Assembly (NCBI RefSeq): GCF_004331695.1
Contig: NZ_SJSL01000001.1
Location: forward strand, 1,798,001-1,862,000
Direction of reading: 5' to 3'
DNA length: 64,000 nt
Source: Pedobacter psychroterrae
GTDB lineage: Bacteria > Bacteroidota > Bacteroidia > Sphingobacteriales > Sphingobacteriaceae
Shown: piece by piece, positions 5,139-18,348 of the stretch
Layout of the letters: every line of letters begins with the position of its first letter
How positions within the stretch are numbered: position 1 is the stretch's first letter
Notes under the pieces: model-generated
The model's input: the letters and a program-made list of their open reading frames with translations, nothing else
Database searches by the model: none
Told to the model about the DNA's origin: nothing
Program-made: the position numbers and the translations under genes

Positions 5139-8100
5139 ATGAACGCCACAGAGCTCACTATTGCAGCCCCAGATTTAGCAGAGACCATAAATGGTTCCCT
5201 TGATCTAAAAGAACTTTTAAATGTGCTTTCTTCTGTTAAGAGTGGAAGACTGAGCATTAGGATGCCCGTTACCCAAGCAGGTATAGAAGGTCGAATTTGT
5301 GAAGTGCTGAATGATATCATCGACATGAATCAGCGATTTGTAGCTGAACTTTCTTCGGCCGAAAAAACCATTGGTAAAAAAGGCAACCTTTCTAAGAGAA
5401 TAGAACTACCCGAGGCAAAGGGAGAATGGGCCAACGGCGTAAGTTCATTAAACACCTTGATAACGGATCTAACCTCACCTACATTGGAGATTGCCAATAT
5501 GATTAACTCTGTAGCCAATGGTGATCTTTCTAAACAAATTCCATTAGAAATTAGCGGTCAACCGCTTAAAGGGGAGTTTCTTAGAATAGCAAAGGAATCG
5601 AACCAGATGCTTTCGAAGCTGAGGTTGTTTTCGATGGAAGTAACCAGGGTAGCCCGTCAGGTCGGTTCGGAAGGGAAACTTGGAGAACAGGCCAAAATTA
5701 AGGGCGTTGCCGGGGTTTGGGCAGAGCTTACTGATTCGGTAAACCAGATGGCAGGTAACTTAACTGCGCAGGTAAGAAACGTAGCAGCAGTAACCACTGC
5801 GGTAGCCAAAGGAGATTTATCAAGAAAAATCACAGTAGAGGCAAAGGGAGAGATTTTAGAACTTAAAAACACCATTAACACCATGGTGGATCAGCTCAAT
5901 TCGTTTTCTTCAGAGGTTACGCGTGTGGCCCTCGAAGTAGGTACGGAAGGTAAGCTAGGCGGACAGGCCGAAGTACCAGGTGTTGCTGGTACGTGGAAAG
6001 ATTTAACGGATTCGGTAAATAGAATGGCAGGTAACCTTACCTCCCAAGTAAGAAATATAGCGGGTGTAACCACAGCAGTAGCTAATGGTGACCTTTCCAA
6101 AAAAATTACGGTAGACGTTAAGGGAGAAATGCTCGAGCTAAAGAAAACCATCAATACCATGGTAGATCAGCTCAACTCATTTGCCTCAGAGGTAACACGT
6201 GTGGCTTTAGAAGTCGGTACAGAGGGTAAATTAGGGGGCCAGGCCAGGGTGAAAGGCGTGGGAGGGGTTTGGAAAGACCTTACCGATTCGGTAAACCAAA
6301 TGGGAAGTAACTTAACCGATCAGGTGCGTAACATTGCGGGAGTAACTACTGCAGTTGCTAAAGGCGATCTTTCGAGAAAGATTACAGTGGATGCTAAGGG
6401 AGAATTATTGGAACTCAAAAACACCATCAATACGATGGTAGATCAGCTCAATTCATTCTCCTCCGAAGTAACACGTGTGGCAAGAGAGGTGGGGTCAGAA
6501 GGACAACTAGGTGGGCAGGCCAACGTACCGGGAGTAGGTGGAACGTGGAAGGATTTAACAGATTCGGTAAACCAGATGGCGGGTAACCTCACCGGGCAGG
6601 TAAGAAATATAGCCGAAGTAACTACAGCGGTAGCGAAAGGCGATTTATCTAAAAAGATTACGGTTGATGTGCAGGGGGAAATGTTGGAGCTTAAAATTAC
6701 CATCAATACGATGGTAGATCAGCTCAACTCTTTCGGTTCTGAAGTAACCCGTGTGGCAAGAGAGGTGGGGTCCGAAGGTCAGCTTGGTGGTCAGGCCAAC
6801 GTACCGGGGGTAGGTGGCACCTGGAAAGATTTAACAGACTCCGTTAATAAAATGGCCGATAACCTGACCTCTCAGGTACGTAACATTGCAGAGGTAACTA
6901 CCGCGGTGGCAAAAGGAGATTTGTCGCGAAAAATTACGGTAAATGCTAAAGGAGAGCTCCTTGAATTAAAAGATACCATTAATACCATGGTTGATCAGTT
7001 GAGGGGCTTTGCATCTGAGGTAACCAGGGTTGCTCGTGAGGTAGGTTCGGAAGGACAACTTGGTGGTCAAGCAAACGTACCGGGTGTAGATGGTACCTGG
7101 AAAGATTTAACAGATAGCGTAAATAAAATGGCGGGTAATTTGACCGCCCAATTGAGAAATATAGCCGATGTAGCCATCGCAGTAGCAAATGGCGATTTAT
7201 CTAAAAAGATTACGGTAGATGTTAGGGGAGAAATCCTTCAATTAAAAGAAACCATCAATACCATGGTGGATCAGTTGAGGGGTTTCGCTTCAGAGGTGAC
7301 CCGTGTTGCGCGCGAGGTAGGTACCGATGGTAACTTGGGCGGACAAGCTTTTGTACCTGGGGTGGCTGGAACATGGAAAGATTTAACAGATTCAGTAAAC
7401 CAAATGTCAAGCAACCTAACCTCACAAGTTCGGAATATTGCCGAGGTAACCAAGGCGGTAGCTAGTGGCGATTTATCTAAAACCGTAATTATCGATGTAA
7501 AGGGAGAGATGATGGATTTGAAAAATACCATTAATACCATGGTAGATCAGCTCAACTCTTTTGCATCAGAGGTAACTCGTGTGGCACGTGAGGTAGGTAC
7601 AGAAGGAAAGCTGGGTGGACAAGCACAGGTAAAAGGCGTAGGTGGTACCTGGAAAGATTTAACAGATTCGGTAAATCAAATGGCATCGAACCTTACCGGA
7701 CAAATCCGTGGTATAGCAAAAGTGGCAACGGGCATTGCAAAAGGAAATTTGAAACAACGTTTATCCATTAATGCACTGGGCGAGGTAGCGCAATTAACAG
7801 ACACCATTAATGAAATGATTGATACACTGGCTGTTTTTGCCGATCAGGTAACTACGGTAGCACGTGAGGTTGGTGTACAGGGAAGATTAGGTGGGCAGGC
7901 CAGTGTACCGGGTGCTTCGGGAACCTGGAAAGATCTGACTGAAAATGTAAATCAGTTGGCGCAGAACCTTACTACACAGGTGCGTTCTATCTCAGAAGTG
8001 GCCTCAGCGGTAACAAAAGGAGATTTAACGCGAACCATTCGGGTTGATGCGAAGGGAGAGTTGGAAGCTTTAAAGGATACTATTAACCAAATGATTGCTA

Positions 8101-10787
8101 ATCTTAAAGGTACTACCTTGAGAAACCATGAGCAGGATTGGCTAAAATCTAACTTGGCTAAATTTGCACAGATGCTGCAGGGCCAACGTGACAGGAATGC
8201 GGTAGCAAACAAGGTATTGTCTGAACTGGCCGAACTTGTAAATGCCCGTTACGGTGCTTTTTATATTCTAGAGCAGTTAGAGCCATTGGATGAGCCTAAG
8301 CTTAAATTGTTTGCAGGGTATGCCCATAAAACCAGTAAAAAGATTAATCAGGAATTTTCATTAAGCGAAGGGCTGGTAGGTCAATGTGCCATAGACAAGG
8401 AGCAAATCAGGATTACTAATTTTCCTAACGAAAACCTGCAAATTAGTTCGGGTATCGGAAGTGCAACACCACTGGATCTAGTAATTCTTCCCGTGCTTTT
8501 TGAAAACAATATAAAGGCGGTAATCGAATTGGCCTCTTTTGATACCTTTAGTAATACACACATCGACTTTTTGGATCAGTTAACGGAGAGTATTGGGATT
8601 GTACTCAACAACATCGAAACCAATACCCGTACTGAAGAGTTGTTAACCCAATCGCAATCCCTAGCAGGAGAGCTTTCTGCACAACAGGAAGAACTTAGAA
8701 GGGCAAATGATGAATTGCATGACAAGGGAAGATCATTAGAAGAGAAAGCAGAACAGTTGACCCTTACATCGAAATATAAATCAGAGTTCCTGGCCAATAT
8801 GTCTCATGAATTGAGAACGCCGCTAAACAGTCTCTTGATTCTTGCCCAGCAACTATTTGAGAACCATGAGGGGAATTTAACCGAAAAGCAAATTAAGTAT
8901 GCAAAAACCATCCATTCTTGCGGCGACGATCTGATTCAGCTGATCAATGATATCCTTGATCTTTCTAAAATCGAATCTGGGGTGATCTCGGCTGACGTGC
9001 TACCCGTAAGCTTTAAAGAAATTGCTTCTTTTGTTGAGTCGACCTTCAAACCGATTTCAGAAACCAAAAATCTGAAGTTCGAAATCAATATAGAAAATGG
9101 TTTGCCTGAAATGATAGAGACAGATATCCAGCGCTTAAACCAGATTTTGAAAAACCTGCTTTCCAATGCTTTTAAGTTTACCGAGAAAGGCAGTGTTAAG
9201 CTAAATATCTTTAAGCAAAGTACTAGTGCATACAGTGCTTTGAAGAAAAGTGAAGAGGTTATAGCTTTTTCAATTGAAGACACCGGAATTGGTATTTCCA
9301 GAAATACCCAAGGCATTATTTTTGAAGCTTTTCAACAGGCTGAAGGCTCTACCAGTAGAAAATATGGCGGTACCGGACTTGGACTTTCCATTAGTAAGGG
9401 TTTCGCCGAATTATTGGGCGGAACAATTACAGTTGGTAGCGAACTTGGGAAAGGAAGTGTATTTACGCTGCTACTTCCAATGAAGTACCAAGAAGGTATC
9501 ACTGTAGCTCCGCAAGGTTTGCTAAAAGAAATGTCCGGCTCAAATTATTCCAGAACAAATTTAATAGATACAACAGAGCACCAGATCGAAGATGACCGTC
9601 ACCATATCGTTGCAGAAGATAAGGTGATTATTGTTATCGAGGATGACTTAAGGTTCACAAAGATCGTGATGGATAAGGCACATGATATGAACCTGAAAGT
9701 GGTGGTGGCAATGGGCTATTTTGAGGTTTTTGAAAGTATCCAGAAATACAATCCGATTGCCATTACGCTAGACGTAAATATGCCCGATTCCAATGGATGG
9801 AAAATAATAAAATTACTAAAGGGCGACATTGCGTTAAGGCATATTCCGGTTCATTTGATCTCTGGCGAAGACAATAAAGCTATTGCACTGAAACTCGGCG
9901 CTAAGAGTTTTAGCCTCAAACCATTGTCTAATAAAGTATTAGATGATCTTATTTCGGGTATCATTGCTTTCCATGAGCAACAGGTGAAAAAGGTATTAGT
10001 GATAGATGACAACGAAACGGAATTGAATAGTATAAACGAATTATTAAAAAATGATGGGATAGTTATTACCTCTTCAAGTACAGCAAAAAAGGGACTTTCC
10101 TTGCTTAGAAATGAAATATTCGACTGTATTATCTTAGACTATATGTTGCCAGATGTGAAGGGAATGGAGTTGTTAAACAAGGTTAACTTACTGAAACGCC
10201 CGCAAACCACTATGATCATCCATTCGGCTAAAGAGTTTACGCATGATGAGTTGACCCAACTTAAACGGCTTAACCATAGGATCATCACCAAAACACCAAA
10301 TTCGAAAATCGATTTATTAGAAGCGATGGTGACATTGTTGCATGTAAATAAGAATCAGCTGAGCGTAGAAAAAATCAATTTACTTAATCAGTTACAGATT
10401 GGAGGTGATATCTTAAGTGCTAAAAAGGTTCTGGTTGTGGATGATGATGTGAGAAATCTCTTTGCGCTTACCGCTGCATTTGAAAGATCTAATATTGAGG
10501 TGCTTACTGCAGAAAGTGGTAGAGAAGCCATAGAAATACTGAACGGTGGTAAAAAAATTGATATCGTGCTGATGGATATTATGATGCCAGAGATGGATGG
10601 TTATGAGACCATTCAAATGATAAGGAAAGAGCCTAAGCACAAAAATCTCCCAATCATTGCTGTTACGGCAAAGGCAATGATAGGCGATAGACAGAAATGC
10701 ATTGATTCTGGGGCTTCGGATTATATCACTAAACCAGTAAAAACTGACCAATTACAATCGTTGATGAAAATATGGTTGATAAAGTAA
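5139..10787 (+). CDS. Giant soluble hybrid histidine kinase: poly-HAMP, GAF, kinase core, three receivers
   Basis: 1882 residues with no signal peptide or membrane segment, so probably cytoplasmic. Order: about three divergent HAMP-like modules (residues 25-165); nine 92-residue tandem units (168-995), each holding two HAMP-like modules; a GAF-like domain (about 1020-1155); a coiled coil (1160-1215); HisKA with phosphoacceptor His1223 in [10 protein letters not shown]; HATPase with N box NAFKFT and G boxes DTGIGIS and GGTGLGLS; then receivers with predicted phosphoacceptor Asp1545, Asp1667 and Asp1813. The architecture resembles the group III poly-HAMP kinases known from fungi (Nik1/Os1 type) and large Bacteroidota kinases. 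The second receiver lacks a clear Thr/Ser-Ala switch motif and may be degenerate. It is followed after 7 bp by a second kinase. The input signal is unknown. Confidence 0.9.
5640..8123 (+). repeat. Nine tandem 276-bp coding repeats (double-HAMP units)
   Basis: Units begin at 5640 and recur every 276 bp exactly (5640, 5916, 6192 and so on to 7848), with no indels. The codons for the VTRVA...VG.EG.LGGQ motif mark each start. The middle units (roughly 3 to 8) are the most alike at DNA and protein level; the first and last are more diverged (the ninth has VTTVA and [10 protein letters not shown]). Each unit encodes a divergent HAMP ([13 protein letters not shown]) and a more canonical one ([14 protein letters not shown]). 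The regularity points to unequal recombination or gene conversion within the array. Confidence 0.92.
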
Positions 10788-10794
10788 TAGCGAA

Positions 10795-12021
10795 ATGAGC
10801 CTTGATCAGAATATTAAGATACTAATCGTTGACGATAGCCCAAACAACCTCATGTCTATTGAAGTGGCGCTGGAAGGAGGCGGGTATGGCTTTTCGCGTG
10901 CACTATCTGGGCGTGAGGCATTAAGGGTATTGTTGCATGACCAAGATTTCTCTCTAATTCTTTTAGATGTGAAGATGCCCATCATGGATGGTTACGAAAC
11001 TGCTGAACTGATTTATGAACGGGATAGCTTGAAAGATATTCCAATTATTTTTATTACTGCTCACGACTACGAAGAGGCGGCAATGTTTAAAGGTTACAGG
11101 GCTGGTGCTGTAGATTTTATACGTAAACCTTTTAATCCGGAAATGTTAAGAACGAAGGTAGCTGTATTCGCAGAGATATTTAGGAAGAACCAATTACTTA
11201 AAAGACAGGAAGAGCGATTAAAGGCAAGTAATGAAAAACTGGTGATATTAAATGCTGAATTGGAGAACAGGGTTAACGAGCGTACTGCCGAACTCCTGGA
11301 TCTTAATACAGAATTAAGGGCATTGAACCTGTCTAAAGATAGGTTCCTTTCGGTCATCTCACACGATCTGAGAAACCCATTAAGCAGTATTCTGGTTTCC
11401 TCAGAGTTTATAAATAAGCATGCAGCAAAGATTACAGAAAAGCAGGTGCTTAGCCTATCAGGTATTATCCACAAAACAGCAAAAGAGATCCTTCAACAAT
11501 TGAACGATTTGGTAGACTGGGCGATGAAGCAACGGGAAAAATCGAAGTTTAATCCTTGCAAGTTAGATCTTAGAAAAGAAATTGACCAGTCGTTAGAACT
11601 GCTAAGATCCTATGCTAATCAGAAAAAAGTGAATTTGGAGAATCGGGTGCAGCCGGAAATCTGTATTAAAGCTGATGAATACATGCTCCGCTCTATTCTT
11701 CAGAATGTAATTACGAATGCTTTAAAGTATACGGCTGTTGGCGGAGAGCCAATTATAATTACGGCGACGGAGTTAGCAGAGGAAGTTGAAATTTGCATTA
11801 CAGACTATGGCATAGGAATGTCTGACGAAACCTTGCGCACTTTTCTCGATTTTAAAGGTAACAAATCTGAACATGGTACCCTTGGCGAGCAAGGTAGTGG
11901 GTTAGGTTTGTTATTGGTAAGTGAATTTGTATCTCAGCACAGCGGAACGATTACCGTAGAAAGCCAACAAGGGGTTGGCACCGGATTTAAGTTTACGATG
12001 CCAACATTTCAAGAAATATGA
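10795..12021 (+). CDS. Receiver-histidine kinase (REC, HisKA, HATPase)
   Basis: 408 residues, soluble. An N-terminal receiver (about 8-125) carries the acidic pair in VDDSPNN, phosphoacceptor Asp58 in LLDVKMP, a Thr in FITAHD and Lys in RKPF. A coiled coil (about 130-180) leads into HisKA with His190 in VISHDLRNP, then HATPase with N box NVITNALKYT, G1 DYGIGMS and G2 GSGLGLLL. It starts 7 bp after the giant hybrid kinase and is surely cotranscribed. The pair would form a phosphorelay in which the REC here may receive phosphate from the upstream kinase. No DNA-binding output domain is encoded nearby. Confidence 0.9.
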   Translation: MSLDQNIKILIVDDSPNNLMSIEVALEGGGYGFSRALSGREALRVLLHDQDFSLILLDVKMPIMDGYETAELIYERDSLKDIPIIFITAHDYEEAAMFKGYRAGAVDFIRKPFNPEMLRTKVAVFAEIFRKNQLLKRQEERLKASNEKLVILNAELENRVNERTAELLDLNTELRALNLSKDRFLSVISHDLRNPLSSILVSSEFINKHAAKITEKQVLSLSGIIHKTAKEILQQLNDLVDWAMKQREKSKFNPCKLDLRKEIDQSLELLRSYANQKKVNLENRVQPEICIKADEYMLRSILQNVITNALKYTAVGGEPIIITATELAEEVEICITDYGIGMSDETLRTFLDFKGNKSEHGTLGEQGSGLGLLLVSEFVSQHSGTITVESQQGVGTGFKFTMPTFQEI

Positions 12022-13533: not shown

Positions 13534-14871
13534 ATGAAAGGCAATTATTTGATCATCAAAGCTTTGTTTACAGTTTTAGCCACATTCCAAATTAGCTATG
13601 GTCAAACCAATAAGCTCCGTTCGGAAATAAATCCTGCGCTCAAAAACTATATTAACAAGCCAGACAAATCTCTTGACTGGAAGGACTATAAGCAGTCGAA
13701 GACTACTGAAGGCAATTACTATGAGATAAACCTCACTTCCCAAACCTGGCAGGAAATCCCCTGGCAGCACAGACTTATCGTGTACTTTCCTAAGCATGCA
13801 AAGTACCCTGGCACTATGATGGTGAATTTAATGCATGGACACCTATATGTTCGTGATCATGCTTTGACAAGCTTAAAGATAATCAGTGATTCTACGGGAA
13901 CACCAGCCGCCATGCTTTATGATATTCCAAATCAGCCTTTGTTCAATGGCAAAGAGGAAGATGACTTACAAGCATTTACTTTTTCGCAATACATCAAAAC
14001 GGGTGATGAGAGCTGGCCATTACTATTTCCCATGGTGAAAAGTGTAGTAAGGGCCATGGATGTTGTACAGCTGTTAGCACCCAAAGAAAGCGAATCGGCT
14101 GTAAATGATTTTGTAGTCGCTGGGCATTCTAAACGCGGACATACGACATGGCTGACGGCGGCAATAGACAATCGTGTAAAAGGGATTATTCCAATCGCTA
14201 TCGATATATTAAATTCCAGTGTTCAATTGCCACACCATCTGGAAACTTTTGGAGAATACAGTACTCCTTCTAAAGCCGCGGGGGATTTTCTACAGGAACT
14301 AAAGCAGCCACTAGGCCAGACTTTGATTCAAATGGTAGACCCGTACACTTACCGCGACCAATTGACGATACCTAAGTTAATCGTATCTGCTACCAATGAT
14401 GATTTCTTCACTACTGATGCTTTGAATTTATACTGGGATGGATTGAAGGCCCCTAAGTCTATGCTATACCTTCCTAATGCTAACCACGTGATGGCTTATT
14501 CGGATTCGCGAATCAACCAAACTGCGTTCGCTTTTATTCGAGCTATCGCTGGGCACAAAAATCTTCCTACGCTTAGCTGGCAGTATATCAAGCATAAAAA
14601 TAGCATAGTACTGAAAATAAATGCTGATTCTCCTGCGACTAAGGCGTCTTTGTGGACTGCTGTGTCGAAGAATAAAGATTTTCGCCAGGCAAGATGGAGT
14701 TCTCAGCCGATGGAGACAAAAAATGTTAGCGAATTTCATAAAGAGTATCTGATAGAGGTACCCCTACCTGCAAGTGGATATCTAGCTATTTTTGGAGAAA
14801 TAGCGTTTCTCAAGGATGGACATACCTTTCGGCTCTCGACTCAGACAAAAATTAGTTCTGGTAAAGAGTAA
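13534..14871 (+). CDS. PhoPQ-activated pathogenicity-related (PqaA-like) alpha/beta hydrolase
   Basis: 445 residues with a Sec signal (MKGNYLIIKALFTVLATFQISYGQ). The central segment VVAGHSKRGHTTWLTAA then DNRVKGIIPIAIDILN is characteristic of the PhoPQ_related family; Ser in GHSKRG sits at the nucleophile elbow of an alpha/beta hydrolase fold, with a candidate Asp in NDDFF and His in ANHVMAY. The family is named for Salmonella PqaA, whose substrate is not established. It is a single gene with no close partners, followed by the direct repeat that borders the hipBA module. Confidence 0.82.
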   Translation: MKGNYLIIKALFTVLATFQISYGQTNKLRSEINPALKNYINKPDKSLDWKDYKQSKTTEGNYYEINLTSQTWQEIPWQHRLIVYFPKHAKYPGTMMVNLMHGHLYVRDHALTSLKIISDSTGTPAAMLYDIPNQPLFNGKEEDDLQAFTFSQYIKTGDESWPLLFPMVKSVVRAMDVVQLLAPKESESAVNDFVVAGHSKRGHTTWLTAAIDNRVKGIIPIAIDILNSSVQLPHHLETFGEYSTPSKAAGDFLQELKQPLGQTLIQMVDPYTYRDQLTIPKLIVSATNDDFFTTDALNLYWDGLKAPKSMLYLPNANHVMAYSDSRINQTAFAFIRAIAGHKNLPTLSWQYIKHKNSIVLKINADSPATKASLWTAVSKNKDFRQARWSSQPMETKNVSEFHKEYLIEVPLPASGYLAIFGEIAFLKDGHTFRLSTQTKISSGKE

Positions 14872-14889
14872 TGAAGAAATTTTGTCGCT

Positions 14890-14909
14890 AAATCGTGAGG
14901 CCCCTAGTA
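14890..14909 (+). repeat. Left direct repeat flanking hipBA
   Basis: A 20-bp sequence ending in the 13-mer GAGGCCCCTAGTA; it matches 16704-16723 at 18 of 20 positions in the same orientation. It lies 19 bp after the pqaA-like stop and about 240 bp before hipB. This is compatible with an insertion footprint or attachment-site pair. Confidence 0.6.
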
Positions 14910-15002
14910 CTCAGCAACGGTTATTTTTGCTGTATATTTAAGAGAATGCCTTTAGGTAAATATCTAGAGGAATTTATTTAAAACAATTCACTAGTTGCTT
15001 GA

Positions 15003-15024
15003 AATGGATAATATTATGCCCATT
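15003..15024. promoter_or_regulatory. Operator-like palindrome O1 upstream of hipB
   Basis: Half-sites AATGGATA and TGCCCATT are separated by 6 bp. It is imperfect, but follows the same AATGGATA-N6-TATCCATT pattern as two further sites at 15034 and 15110. HipB proteins bind such inverted repeats to repress their own operon. Confidence 0.55.
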
Positions 15025-15033
15025 TTATCTAGT

Positions 15034-15055
15034 AATGAATATAATATTATCCATT
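15034..15055. promoter_or_regulatory. Operator-like palindrome O2 upstream of hipB
   Basis: AATGAATA-N6-TATCCATT, one mismatch between the arms. It begins 31 bp (about three helical turns) after O1, which would place the two on the same DNA face. Confidence 0.6.
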
Positions 15056-15105
15056 TTGTGTTTCGACTTTCTTATGCTTTTAGTATATTTTATAGAAGTT
15101 TTAGT

Positions 15106-15113
15106 TATATTTG
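15106..15113 (+). promoter_or_regulatory. -7 box (TATATTTG) of the hipBA promoter
   Basis: An exact TAnnTTTG box ending 18 bp before the hipB ATG. Its last four bases overlap the third operator-like palindrome, so a bound repressor would cover the promoter and transcription start. Confidence 0.6.
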
Positions 15114-15131
15114 GATATAATACTATCCATT
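15110..15131. promoter_or_regulatory. Operator-like palindrome O3 abutting the hipB start codon
   Basis: TTTGGATA-N6-TATCCATT, ending directly before the ATG at 15132. The core GGATA-N6-TATCC is perfect. It is the best-formed of the three sites and overlaps the -7 box. Confidence 0.65.
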
Positions 15132-15422
15132 ATGAAATCAAGGAAGGCTGTGATCTTTCCCAAGTATCAAAAAATTTGGGATCAGCTTGGTGAGAATATC
15201 AAGTTGGCTAGAAAACGTAGGAAACTCACTGCCATTCAGCTTGCTGAACGTGCTGCTATTGAAAGGCTAACCCTTCGCAAAATAGAGAGAGGTGATCCTA
15301 GCGTATCTATGGGGGCTTATTTCAATGTGCTCAGGGCATTAAATTTACAGGAGGATTTCCTTAAACTTGCTGTCGATGATGAACTTGGTAGAAAACTTCA
15401 GGATTTAGATCTGTTAACCTAA
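15132..15422 (+). CDS. hipB: HipB-like XRE-family antitoxin
   Basis: 96 residues from ATG 15132; an in-frame TTG at 15111 lies inside the -7 box and is rejected. The helix-turn-helix occupies about residues 15-70 (IKLARKRRKLTAIQLAERAAIERLTLRKIERGDPSVSM, read in parts), typical of Cro/C1-type HipB. The stop TAA overlaps the hipA ATG by one base, so the two are translationally coupled. Three operator-like palindromes and a promoter box sit directly upstream, matching the autorepression known for HipBA systems. The partner kinase is intact, so the antitoxin is expected to be functional. Confidence 0.85.
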   Translation: MKSRKAVIFPKYQKIWDQLGENIKLARKRRKLTAIQLAERAAIERLTLRKIERGDPSVSMGAYFNVLRALNLQEDFLKLAVDDELGRKLQDLDLLT

Positions 15423-16681
15423 TGGCAGCAACGAAAACAGATATATGGGTGTATGCTCATTGGAAAGGTATGGGTGCCCCGAAATGCATAGGTGTAATAT
15501 CTGCACAGCAAAGTAAAGGGAGCAGAATATTCGGTTTTGAGTACGATAAAGACTGGCTAAAGTCAGATCAGGTTTTCTTACTTGATCCCGAAATTGGATT
15601 ATACCCAGGAACTCAATATCCAGATAAAAAAGACAATTTTGGTGTATTTATGGATTCGATGCCCGATACATGGGGGAGAAAACTCATGCTTCGCCGTGCT
15701 GCACAAAGAGTCCTCGTAAAAGGAGAGTCAACACCAAAACTATACGAGATTGACTTCTTGTTAGGCGTCCACGATGTTTCAAGAATGGGCGCACTCCGAT
15801 TCAAATTGGATCCTAACGGTTCTTTTCTAGATGACAACAAGGATAATCCAACCCCACCAATCACGAATTTGAGAGAGCTGCAGGCCAGTGTTAAAGCATA
15901 TGAAGAGGATGAGGACGGAAAAAATGGGGATGAATGGATTCCAATTCTTTTTGCACCGGGATCATCGTTGGGTGGAGCTCGGCCGAAAGCAAATGTTATT
16001 GACTTAGATGGTCACCTATGTATTGCAAAGTTTCCTTCAAAAGCCGACACAACTGACAAAGCAGCATGGGAATACCTGGCATACGAACTGGCCTGCAGAG
16101 CAGGAATCAATATGGCTATCTGCACTCTTGAAAAGGTAAGGGGTCCATATCATACATTTTTGTCAAGACGGTTTGATAGGGAAGCAGAGCAACGGATTCA
16201 TTTCGCATCAGCCATGACCATGACAAGGAACAGTGAAGATACCATTAGAGACGTCACTCCAAGTTACCTTGAAATAGCAGAATTTATACAAACATATGGT
16301 TCAAACATAGAGGCAGACTTACATCAACTGTGGAGGCGTATAGTGTTTCATATGGCGATCTCCAATACCGATGATCATTTTAGAAACCACGGATTTCTGC
16401 TAGAGGAAAAGGGTTGGAGATTATCCCCCGCCTATGATATTAATCCCTCGATAGATAAAAACGGACTGGCTTTAAATGTTGATATGGATAATAATGAACT
16501 GGATTTTGAGCTAGCTAAAAGTGTTGGTCAATTTTTCCAGCTTAATAAAGATCAGATGGATAAAATTCTAGATGAAATCGTCAGGGTAACCGAGGACTGG
16601 CGGCCATTAGCATCGAAATTAGGGATATCCCGCGCAGACCAGGAGACCATGTCTCCTGCATTTAGATTAGTTACAGGATAG
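15422..16681 (+). CDS. hipA: HipA-family serine/threonine kinase toxin
   Basis: 419 residues. An N-terminal subdomain with PDTWGRKLMLRR and a GVHDVSRMGALRF segment precedes the kinase domain. The loop GSSLGGARPK (residues 180-189) corresponds to the E. coli HipA P-loop, where Ser182 aligns with the autophosphorylated Ser150. The catalytic loop NTDDHFRN gives Asp317 and Asn322, and PAYDI gives metal-binding Asp339, all intact. E. coli HipA phosphorylates glutamyl-tRNA synthetase and causes growth arrest and persistence; the target here may differ. There is no separate HipS-like gene, so this is the two-gene form. The module is bordered by direct repeats. Confidence 0.88.
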   Translation: MAATKTDIWVYAHWKGMGAPKCIGVISAQQSKGSRIFGFEYDKDWLKSDQVFLLDPEIGLYPGTQYPDKKDNFGVFMDSMPDTWGRKLMLRRAAQRVLVKGESTPKLYEIDFLLGVHDVSRMGALRFKLDPNGSFLDDNKDNPTPPITNLRELQASVKAYEEDEDGKNGDEWIPILFAPGSSLGGARPKANVIDLDGHLCIAKFPSKADTTDKAAWEYLAYELACRAGINMAICTLEKVRGPYHTFLSRRFDREAEQRIHFASAMTMTRNSEDTIRDVTPSYLEIAEFIQTYGSNIEADLHQLWRRIVFHMAISNTDDHFRNHGFLLEEKGWRLSPAYDINPSIDKNGLALNVDMDNNELDFELAKSVGQFFQLNKDQMDKILDEIVRVTEDWRPLASKLGISRADQETMSPAFRLVTG

Positions 16682-16703
16682 CTTCTGAACCTCTTATGTA
16701 TTA

Positions 16704-16723
16704 AAATTGCGAGGCCCCTAGTA
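16704..16723 (+). repeat. Right direct repeat flanking hipBA
   Basis: The same 20-bp element as 14890-14909 (18 of 20 identical, including GAGGCCCCTAGTA), 23 bp after the hipA stop. The two copies are 1814 bp apart and enclose only hipBA with its control region. Confidence 0.6.
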
Positions 16724-16766
16724 GTAACAGAGGCTACCACGGCCTCAGCCCTTTACGACCTTAGAT

Positions 16767-17126
16767 TTACTTTATTTCTACCCTTATTAGATACCAGGCC
16801 CACCAGATTAGCACAAATTGCAAAGGCAATCTGATATATGCCATTAATTTACTGCCTATTGCGGGTTTATCTTTGAATACATCCGACAAATGGAAGGGGA
16901 GAAAGAAGATCATCAAGCCAAATAATACCATGGCTGAGCTTGTTCTATACTTCGGAAATAATAGCGCAAATCCGATCATAAATTCTAACAAACCAAAGAC
17001 GTAATTTACAGTTAACAGTGGTAGCCATTTTGGGATGAAGGATTTGTAGAATCGTGGGTTGAAAATGTGATTCAGTCCCGCTACCATCATTATAGCGCTG
17101 TAGGTATATAAGAGGAATAATTTCAA
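16767..17126 (-). CDS. DoxX-like small membrane protein
   Basis: 119 residues if translation starts at the TTG at 17126 (first residues MKLFLLYTYSAIMMVAGLNH), which matches the usual length and N-terminus of the family; no in-frame ATG is available until a tandem pair inside the first helix, and the frame further upstream runs into the divergent gene. Four hydrophobic helices are visible, with the family pattern GLNHIFNPRFYKSFIPKWLP after the first. DoxX-like proteins are linked to redox or sulfur metabolism in some species, but the function here is unknown. A near-consensus box (TATATTTA on the minus strand, 17144-17151) precedes the start. Confidence 0.65.
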   Translation of the reverse strand: MKLFLLYTYSAIMMVAGLNHIFNPRFYKSFIPKWLPLLTVNYVFGLLEFMIGFALLFPKYRTSSAMVLFGLMIFFLPFHLSDVFKDKPAIGSKLMAYIRLPLQFVLIWWAWYLIRVEIK

Positions 17127-17172
17127 GGTGAGTATGTAAAGAGTAAATATACGGAAAGTAAATGTGATAAAG

Positions 17173-17180
17173 TATATTTG
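17173..17180 (+). promoter_or_regulatory. -7 box (TATATTTG) directly before the YdeI-like gene
   Basis: An exact TAnnTTTG box separated by only three bases from the ATG at 17184. With the usual spacing, transcription would begin at or next to the start codon, giving a leaderless mRNA. Confidence 0.5.
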
Positions 17181-17183
17181 AAT

Positions 17184-17702
17184 ATGCAGACGGAAGGTTT
17201 CAATAAATACAGTTTCAAGGCTGAGCTCCAAATTGTTGGGATCAATCCATATGTTTTTCTTCCTGAAGATATCTTATTAGCAGTTTTCATACAGGCAGGA
17301 AGGAACAAAAGTCCGATTCCTGTTAGTGGTACGGTGAACGGTAAACCTTATAGGCAAACCCTGGTGAGATATCAGGGCGCATGGCGGTTGTACATCAATT
17401 TATTGATGCTTGACAACTCGCCCAAAAGAATAGGCGAAATAATAGAAGTTGGTATCGCTTATGACCCGATTGCGAGAGCATTTACTGCCCATCCCGCGCT
17501 AACAAAAGCACTTGAGCGACACGTCCAGGCAAAAGATGTATTTGATGGCCTGACACCCTCGCTCAAGAACGAGATAATCAAATACATCAACAATTTAAAA
17601 ACAGATGAGAGTGTAAACAAGAATGTAGATAAAGCGATTGATTTCTTGTTAGGCAAAGGGCGGTTTGTAGGACGGGATCCTTTGCAGCACAATACAAAAT
17701 AG
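17184..17702 (+). CDS. YdeI/OmdA-type protein (DUF1905 plus OmdA domains)
   Basis: 172 residues. The N-terminal part (YSFKAELQIVGINPYVFLPED, then IPVSGTVNGKPYRQTL) matches the DUF1905 beta-barrel; the C-terminal part (ALERHVQAKDVFDGLTPSLKNEIIKYINN then a Lys/Asp-rich tail with AIDFLLGKGRF) matches the OmdA or bacteriocin-protection domain that follows it in many Bacteroidota. The exact biochemical role is unknown. It is divergent to the DoxX-like gene, with about 57 bp between the starts. The TTG at 17178 is inside the promoter box and is not taken as the start. Confidence 0.8.
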   Translation: MQTEGFNKYSFKAELQIVGINPYVFLPEDILLAVFIQAGRNKSPIPVSGTVNGKPYRQTLVRYQGAWRLYINLLMLDNSPKRIGEIIEVGIAYDPIARAFTAHPALTKALERHVQAKDVFDGLTPSLKNEIIKYINNLKTDESVNKNVDKAIDFLLGKGRFVGRDPLQHNTK

Positions 17703-17865: not shown

Positions 17866-18031
17866 ATCCGTTTCGCTATTGGTTTCGATGGATTCTTGCG
17901 GGAATTGTTTAAGTACCGGAATCTTGAAGAATAATGCTCAAAAAAATATTTTGAGAGTGTTTTATTAGGTAAAATATAATTCTAATTTTTAGGATTTTTT
18001 GAAATAAAATTCTTTATCTTAAAAATTTGAT

Positions 18032-18039
18032 TATCTTTG
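18032..18039 (+). promoter_or_regulatory. -7 box (TATCTTTG) of the cold-shock gene
   Basis: An exact TAnnTTTG box 22 bp before the ATG at 18062. The stretch 18031-18047 matches 16 of 17 bases of the hipB promoter region at 15105-15121, including GGATATAAT. Confidence 0.6.
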
Positions 18040-18061
18040 GATATAATTTAAATAAAATACA

Positions 18062-18253
18062 ATGCAATTAGGAACAGTAAAATTTTTCAATGAGACAAAA
18101 GGTTTTGGATTTATCGTACCAGCGAATGGTGATAGCGAAATCTTTGTTCATTCTTCTGGTTTAATGGATAACATTCGTGAGAATGATTCAGTAAGCTATG
18201 ACATCGAGCAGGGTAAAAAAGGCTTGAACGCAATTAATGTTAAGATCAGCTAA
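18062..18253 (+). CDS. Cold-shock domain protein, CspA family
   Basis: 63 residues, a complete single cold-shock domain. RNP1 is KGFGFI (residues 13-18) and RNP2 is IFVHSS (27-32), with the expected aromatic residues for single-stranded RNA/DNA binding. Proteins of this family act as RNA chaperones in the cytoplasm during cold or growth transitions. The 22-bp leader predicted from the -7 box is much shorter than the long thermosensing leader of E. coli cspA, so regulation probably differs. A strong terminator follows at 18279-18308, so this is a monocistronic gene. Confidence 0.93.
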   Translation: MQLGTVKFFNETKGFGFIVPANGDSEIFVHSSGLMDNIRENDSVSYDIEQGKKGLNAINVKIS

Positions 18254-18278
18254 TTAGATTTCCTTCATAATTGAATAG

Positions 18279-18308
18279 ACACCTGCCTTTTGGCAGGTGT
18301 TTTTTTTT
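18279..18308 (+). terminator. Rho-independent terminator of the cold-shock gene
   Basis: A perfect 9-bp stem ACACCTGCC/GGCAGGTGT closes a TTTT loop and is followed by eight T residues. It begins 25 bp after the stop codon. Confidence 0.9.
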
Positions 18309-18348
18309 ACCGGCATTGGCCTGCTCTGGATTTCAGGCCAGAGTCAAC

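Follow-up and report, generated by a model that had tools for sequence, protein, structure and literature searches.

A hipBA-like gene pair of Pedobacter psychroterrae is bracketed by two imperfect 20-bp direct repeats. A first-pass annotation took the repeats for the footprint left by insertion or excision of a small toxin–antitoxin cassette, possibly a mobile unit moved in trans. This raises the question of what the repeats are and how the gene pair came to lie between them. We addressed it in the whole 64,000-nucleotide stretch that was analysed (hereafter the window, with positions counted from its first letter) and in comparisons with related genomes.

The hipBA module and the repeat pair

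The antitoxin-like gene hipB (15132..15422, plus strand; ATG at 15132 read from the sequence) matches HTH_31 and HTH_3 above the Pfam cut-offs. The start of hipA (15422..16681, plus strand), which encodes a HipA_C kinase-toxin-like protein of 419 residues (PF07804, E 8.5e-50, 169.8 bits against a cut-off of 30.5), overlaps the end of hipB at 15422. Both proteins stay below the cut-offs of NCBIfam models, hipB with 37.8 bits against 71.65 (TIGR03070) and 25.7 against 79 (NF007271) and hipA with 35.2 against 401 (NF007297); these models may represent other subfamilies than the window's pair. The HipA_C domain, together with a small overlapping HTH gene directly upstream, qualifies the pair as a predicted HipBA type II toxin–antitoxin module.

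Two operator-like sites precede the module. The proximal one is a palindrome, GGATATAATACTATCC, read from the sequence in front of hipB (15113..15128), and related hipBA leaders carry palindromes similar to this putative operator. The distal one is an inverted-repeat pair (I1, 15002..15056), which finds matches of 77–84% both in other Pedobacter hipBA leaders and, as orphans, in five genomes (L201, L202, L203, L205 and L212 of G116, G073, G031, G040 and G080, respectively). The orphans of G116 and G073 are preceded by the same stretch as in the hipBA leader of G079, a stretch resembling a tyrosine-recombinase gene tail. The match between G031 and the G079 leader breaks off inside the proximal operator, as would be expected had hipBA been lost there. 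Rfam gave no match to the window at the gathering threshold.

The left repeat copy (14890..14909, plus strand, AAATCGTGAGGCCCCTAGTA) and the right one (16704..16723, plus strand, AAATTGCGAGGCCCCTAGTA) agree in orientation and in 18 of 20 bases, are spaced by 1814 bp and enclose hipBA with its operator-like sites, just as the first-pass annotation had described. Its further statement that no transposase or integrase is present holds for the 19 proteins of window 22–26901 scanned against Pfam, a set that leaves aside the ORFs at 5139–10787 and 10795–12021, small ORFs and everything beyond 26.9 kb.

How unusual is such a pair? In the 5.1-Mb genome, the hipBA locus has the only two copies of the 13-mer core, which is absent from 144 other Pedobacter genomes, in which a reversed control pattern gave 14 matches in 11 genomes. 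With up to three mismatches, a 19-mer found the same two places alone in its own genome (reversed control, five), and the exact 19-mer had no match in the public collections genome_contigs and viral_contigs, where records of the same genome are possibly excluded. Nor were the 20-mers found at up to four mismatches in 282 loci of other genomes, including those around other hipBA copies. The whole-genome search for further copies of the 20-mer that the first-pass annotation had proposed thus returned none, and a common genome-wide motif is ruled out by the presence of just two copies.

Twelve dinucleotide shuffles of the window produced five equally good pairs in total (0–2 each) at 300–2500 bp, none of them with a GC count of at least 10 of 20. 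The real window contains 58 pairs this good at the same spacing, 49 of which fall in one tandem-repeat ORF and six between paralogous stretches near 62–64 kb; the hipBA pair is one of the three isolated pairs left in the 64 kb. An ORF of 1882 residues at 5139–10787 has internal repeats, with repeat pairs spaced at multiples of 276 bp. Real sequence has more such pairs than shuffles do, against which the hipBA pair is improbable. Among same-locus control windows, drawn from 51 loci, an 18/20 pair was present in 18 of 2,227 (0.81%). Taken alone, the repeat pair is suggestive, not decisive. We accept it as real because of its context, which leads to another gene.

Remnants of gene X at both repeats

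A search of the leader (14872–15098) across the genus found no donor; it found the orphan operators and an accessory gene, which we term gene X. The leader matches G057 at 84% over 51 bp (14881–14931) and G058 at 93% over 28 bp, and positions 14910–14931 match G033 in 22 of 22 bases. All three matches lie at the 3′ end of gene X, and in G057 the 3′ flank matches as well. Gene X codes for 185–186 residues, the last of which are SKNNRC, and has matches in 48 of 145 genomes; in the P. psychroterrae genome itself there is no match and none intact. Its product has no Pfam match and reaches an NCBIfam lipoprotein model only below the cut-off; from the hydrophobic N-terminus, we read it as probably exported.

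On the left, the gene-X remnant (14881..14931, minus strand) comprises the 3′ flank and the last 21 bases of the gene, SKNNRC and stop, and the left repeat copy lies within this flank. Between the remnant and the distal operator there is a 70-bp stretch (14932..15001) with only short, weak matches among the 145 genomes. On the right, the repeat copy is followed by a second remnant (16723..16746, minus strand) of 24 interior bases (EAVVTSVT), 23 of which are identical in G057. The 23 bases immediately after the right repeat lie inside gene X in 19 of 30 gene-X loci at up to four mismatches, these 30 being the alleles used out of the 48 matches. When 852 overlapping tiles of the window were compared with the 30 alleles, the four best were those at the two repeats (53.6, 42.8, 40.1 and 34.6 bits), the next best scoring 30.1.

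The remnant matches and the tile ranking argue that the left repeat is native gene-X 3′ flank and that the right repeat is a second copy of this flank, fused to the middle of the gene. Very probably, then, the two repeats are a duplicated gene-X flank. From left to right come the 3′ flank of gene X, the last 21 bases of the gene, the foreign segment that carries hipBA, the second flank copy and the 24 interior bases; all gene-X pieces keep one orientation and gene order. At the two positions where the repeat copies differ, G057, aligned by eye, has C at both, and each copy carries one C-to-T change relative to it; this fits a separate ageing of the two copies.

The right repeat and the gene-X interior form a hairpin (16709..16749) that is terminator-like on the minus strand (−22.8 kcal/mol, z −2.4; plus strand −17.3, z −2.5), and a simple terminator scan did not report it. 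The hairpin is a product of the fusion between flank and gene interior. An independent terminator as the source of the repeat is ruled out, as the other arm of the hairpin is gene-X coding sequence and the left copy has no comparable hairpin. To judge from these alignments, hipBA looks to be sitting in the ruins of gene X, with a repeat pair made by duplication of the 3′ flank and by decay.

Module limits and surroundings in related genomes

Is hipBA a newcomer at this site? Compared with P. nyackensis, hipA has a DNA identity of 94.4% (third positions 87.5%, ungapped) versus 88.7% (third positions 71.0%, ungapped) for rpoB. The DNA homology with P. nyackensis spans 15099–16684, inside the repeats, and is accompanied by 56–57-bp matches of operator copies. 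In 14 genomes, the module of about 1.6 kb nearly always occupies a different site. Comparison between the hipBA contexts of 13 other genus genomes, among matches over 200 bp, gave homology of 1,451–1,626 bp in most pairs and longer context matches only within G087/G079/G074 and within G115/G139/G100. Similarly, hipA and hipB alone are common at 45% identity or more among 215 neighbour proteins of the 14 contexts, except for one gene in G079/G087 and one in G100/G115. The neighbour proteins and the DNA homology together thus place the module at a different site in nearly every species. Since hipA is closer to P. nyackensis than rpoB is and the module nearly always lies at different sites, hipBA was acquired by horizontal transfer from another species. 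Its copies have their common limits at the operator region and at the stop of hipA rather than at the repeats.

A few resemblances between hipBA surroundings were also seen. Downstream of hipA, 760–840 bp are common to G079/G087 and G031/G040 (L115, L113, L264 and L266; 88–94% identical), and the hipA of G031/G040 is just 49% identical to that of the window, so that different hipBA alleles occupy one kind of site. In P. foliorum, too, a small membrane-type protein is encoded 3′ of hipA; its only Pfam match is below the cut-off, and we treat the resemblance as coincidence.

In the window, hipBA lies between a pqaA-like gene (13534..14871, plus strand; PhoPQ-activated pathogenicity-related family, PF10142, E 2e-94) and a gene for a small membrane-type protein (16767..17231, minus strand). 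The latter, called doxX-like in the first-pass annotation, matched nothing in Pfam or NCBIfam and has genus relatives of up to 63%. A pqaA-like match was present in 13 other genomes, none of which has the doxX-like gene within 1.5 kb of it. Across those genomes and 14 of the doxX-like loci, checked over the same distance, the only neighbour that was shared was a cold-shock-type gene in G111 (L062); it stands next to a broken doxX relative, and gene X is absent from that place. Window positions 17937–18311 draw DNA matches from very many genus genomes and include a 63-residue ORF (18062–18253) that presumably encodes a cold-shock protein. A 10.9-kb DNA query from the window gave at most two or three matches per genome, with no collinear pieces among the matches listed. 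The surroundings of gene X in 14 genomes yielded four weak window matches only (25–41% identity), to genes far from hipBA. Hence no syntenic empty site was found among the relatives searched. A candidate empty site for P. foliorum, taken from its relative G105, was dismissed because the two genomes differ by a larger block and not by hipBA alone.

We then asked how typical direct repeats are around hipBA. The scan covered 20-mers agreeing in at least 18 bases, from 450 bp upstream to 250 bp downstream, at 62 loci: 55 of 80 named hipA loci (without L132, L167, L173, L174 and L179–L199), the window and seven further genomes make 63, and one failed the flank-length filter. L164 and L165 have identical best pairs, and the loci are therefore not all independent. 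Repeats turned up at seven of the 62 loci, compared with 0.45% of 3,782 mismatched pairs and with the 0.81% of same-locus controls. Their origins vary: those of G040 and G031 are operator copies, that of P. westerhofensis is a 188-bp local repeat with a third copy nearby, that of Daejeonella is palindromic, Psychroflexus salis has a 33-bp repeat near a tRNA-Val gene, that of P. frigoris is the tail of a tyrosine recombinase gene and that of the window is gene X. Repeats around hipBA are thus over-represented and of several origins.

At the P. westerhofensis locus (L128), the repeat of about 160–190 bp ends in a long palindrome and is present in three copies around a Fic-family gene and hipBA, resembling spacers in a gene array. 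At the P. frigoris locus (L121; 5550–5720 and 7260–7380), hipBA follows an intact tyrosine recombinase gene at about 80 bp, and the decayed copy of the gene tail lies just after hipA. Among 35 loci scanned for RNA genes, hipBA has a tmRNA (L110, 9089–9453), a tRNA-Asp (L123, 5062–5136), a tRNA-Val (L142, 5268–5345) or a tRNA-Arg (L127, 5029–5101) within about 0.6 kb.

Routes of entry and comparison with known systems

Three routes would yield the observed order of parts: recombination anchored in gene X, insertion with filler DNA, and integrase-type insertion in the gene tail. The first appears the best of them, given that the sites differ nearly everywhere, that no integrase was found here and that one-sided integration is described as a known process (PMC3240628). 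By this route, hipBA would enter by a single crossover or by homology-facilitated illegitimate recombination anchored in gene X, so that the incoming DNA would have a copy of the 3′ flank at either side; afterwards, most of the sequence of each gene-X copy would be lost. We consider the explanation as a whole to be probable, and we favour homology-anchored (one-sided) integration as the particular route only tentatively. P. frigoris offers a parallel: its hipBA has an intact tyrosine recombinase gene on one side and, on the other, a decayed piece (33 bp, 85%) that copies the 3′ end of that gene. Several observations count against the explanation. The gene-X remnants are short, 51 and 24 bp, too short to decide the route. 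Left of the right copy, gene-X flank homology does not extend beyond the 20-mer, and the duplicated piece may be just 20 bp. A tblastn search of gene X against 93 hipBA-context loci gave no match, and no hipBA was found beside gene X. Finally, at 55 of the 62 hipBA loci the scanned flanks contain no direct repeat of 18/20.

The sharp limit of the duplicated piece at 20 bp is what filler DNA would predict. On this view, illegitimate end joining would have put hipBA into a single copy of gene X at the cost of about 234 bp of that gene, and a templated filler of 20 bp would have been copied from the nearby 3′ flank into the right junction. The remnants are indeed collinear with one gene X (1469–1518, then 1753–1776 of L231). 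However, this combination of events, which we regard as rather unlikely, requires a 20-bp templated insert, and gene X beyond 16746 must vanish in an additional step.

An integrase-type insertion is less likely still. In this case, hipBA and a copy of the gene-X tail would have travelled on an element that integrated at the gene-X 3′ end; the integrase and most of the gene would later have been lost. The order of parts matches this expectation, and a few hipBA copies do lie near tRNA or tmRNA genes. Moreover, beside three other Pedobacter hipBA copies, those of P. frigoris, Pedobacter sp. Leaf194 (G079) and G040, a tyrosine recombinase or its apparent 3′ remnant is found up to about 0.3 kb upstream. 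By contrast, the 19 scanned window proteins include no tyrosine recombinase or other integrase, and the flanks of the window's hipBA gave integrase matches at chance level only. The module ends are not conserved, and almost every species has hipBA at another site. When the P. frigoris recombinase served as query, a match within 5 kb was found in only six of 63 contexts (P. frigoris, G040, L164, L165, L175 and, with the G079 remnant as query, L126). One could also imagine that hipBA of Bacteroidota is a minimal 1.6-kb mobile unit placed at gene 3′ ends by the tyrosine recombinases of other elements, with a copy of the gene tail left on the far side. The gene-X scar, the recombinase-tail repeats of P. 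frigoris and the recombinase remnants of Leaf194 and G040 would then be ageing stages of one process; we offer this as speculation with a small chance of being right.

Quite improbable is the reading in which a mobile cassette spans 14910–16703 and the repeats are its target-site duplication or att core. It can draw on direct repeats that lie near hipBA on both sides and are unique in the genome, and on the excess of repeats at the seven loci. The gene-X context largely contradicts it: the left copy has native sequence on either side and, instead of abutting the insert, is followed by 22 bp matching the gene-X 3′ end. Furthermore, module homology to the nearest relative ends at 15099 and 16684, and the seven loci include two with operator copies, one with a local repeat in a third copy and one with a palindrome. 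For the same reasons, and given that the repeat is absent around the other hipBA copies searched, the proposed mobile unit moved in trans with the repeats as its ends is not upheld. What survives of the footprint reading is that hipBA was acquired horizontally and that the repeats mark a real scar; their role as target duplication or att ends is not supported. A chance similarity of two unrelated 20-mers, for which the three isolated pairs in the window and the 0.81% of same-locus controls leave some room, is the least credible reading; it is largely contradicted by the position of both copies directly beside gene-X sequence, at the two window places that match gene X best.

The locus therefore looks like the insertion scar of a transferred toxin–antitoxin pair, and the repeats like debris of a destroyed gene rather than ends of a mobile unit, the gene having been destroyed when or after the pair arrived. 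Short direct repeats around a toxin–antitoxin pair, in other words, need not be target duplications.

How does this scar compare with known systems? Integrative elements that target gene 3′ ends leave a duplicated gene tail on two sides of the insert. The window has the same duplicated tail on both sides of its insert; unlike with such elements, no integrase was found here, and the module has no conserved ends and a different site in nearly every species. None of the entries that literature searches returned on toxin–antitoxin modules with direct repeats, hipBA transfer, flanking context, insertion-site remnants and homology-facilitated recombination named this locus. Makarova et al. (2009, PMC2701414) describe HipBA type II modules as two-gene units that are horizontally mobile. 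The window's pair resembles those described there in its HTH gene followed by an overlapping HipA_C gene, its palindromic operator-like sites, its patchy distribution and its differing sites, and differs in that hipB and hipA are below the NCBIfam cut-offs and that the insertion scar can be read. In homology-facilitated illegitimate recombination as described by Amarir-Bouhram et al. (2011, PMC3240628), incoming linear DNA joins at one end by homology and at the other illegitimately. Such a process could give the observed order of parts; in the window it is a proposal drawn from a decayed scar. Toxin–antitoxin pairs are known to move between bacteria (PMC2701414), but it is seldom possible to read how a bare pair got into its site. 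At this locus, one can put a name to the host gene that was destroyed, to the limits of the module and to the flank that was duplicated, and the route of entry thereby becomes open to testing. The locus is ordinary in kind, and its scar is unusually readable.
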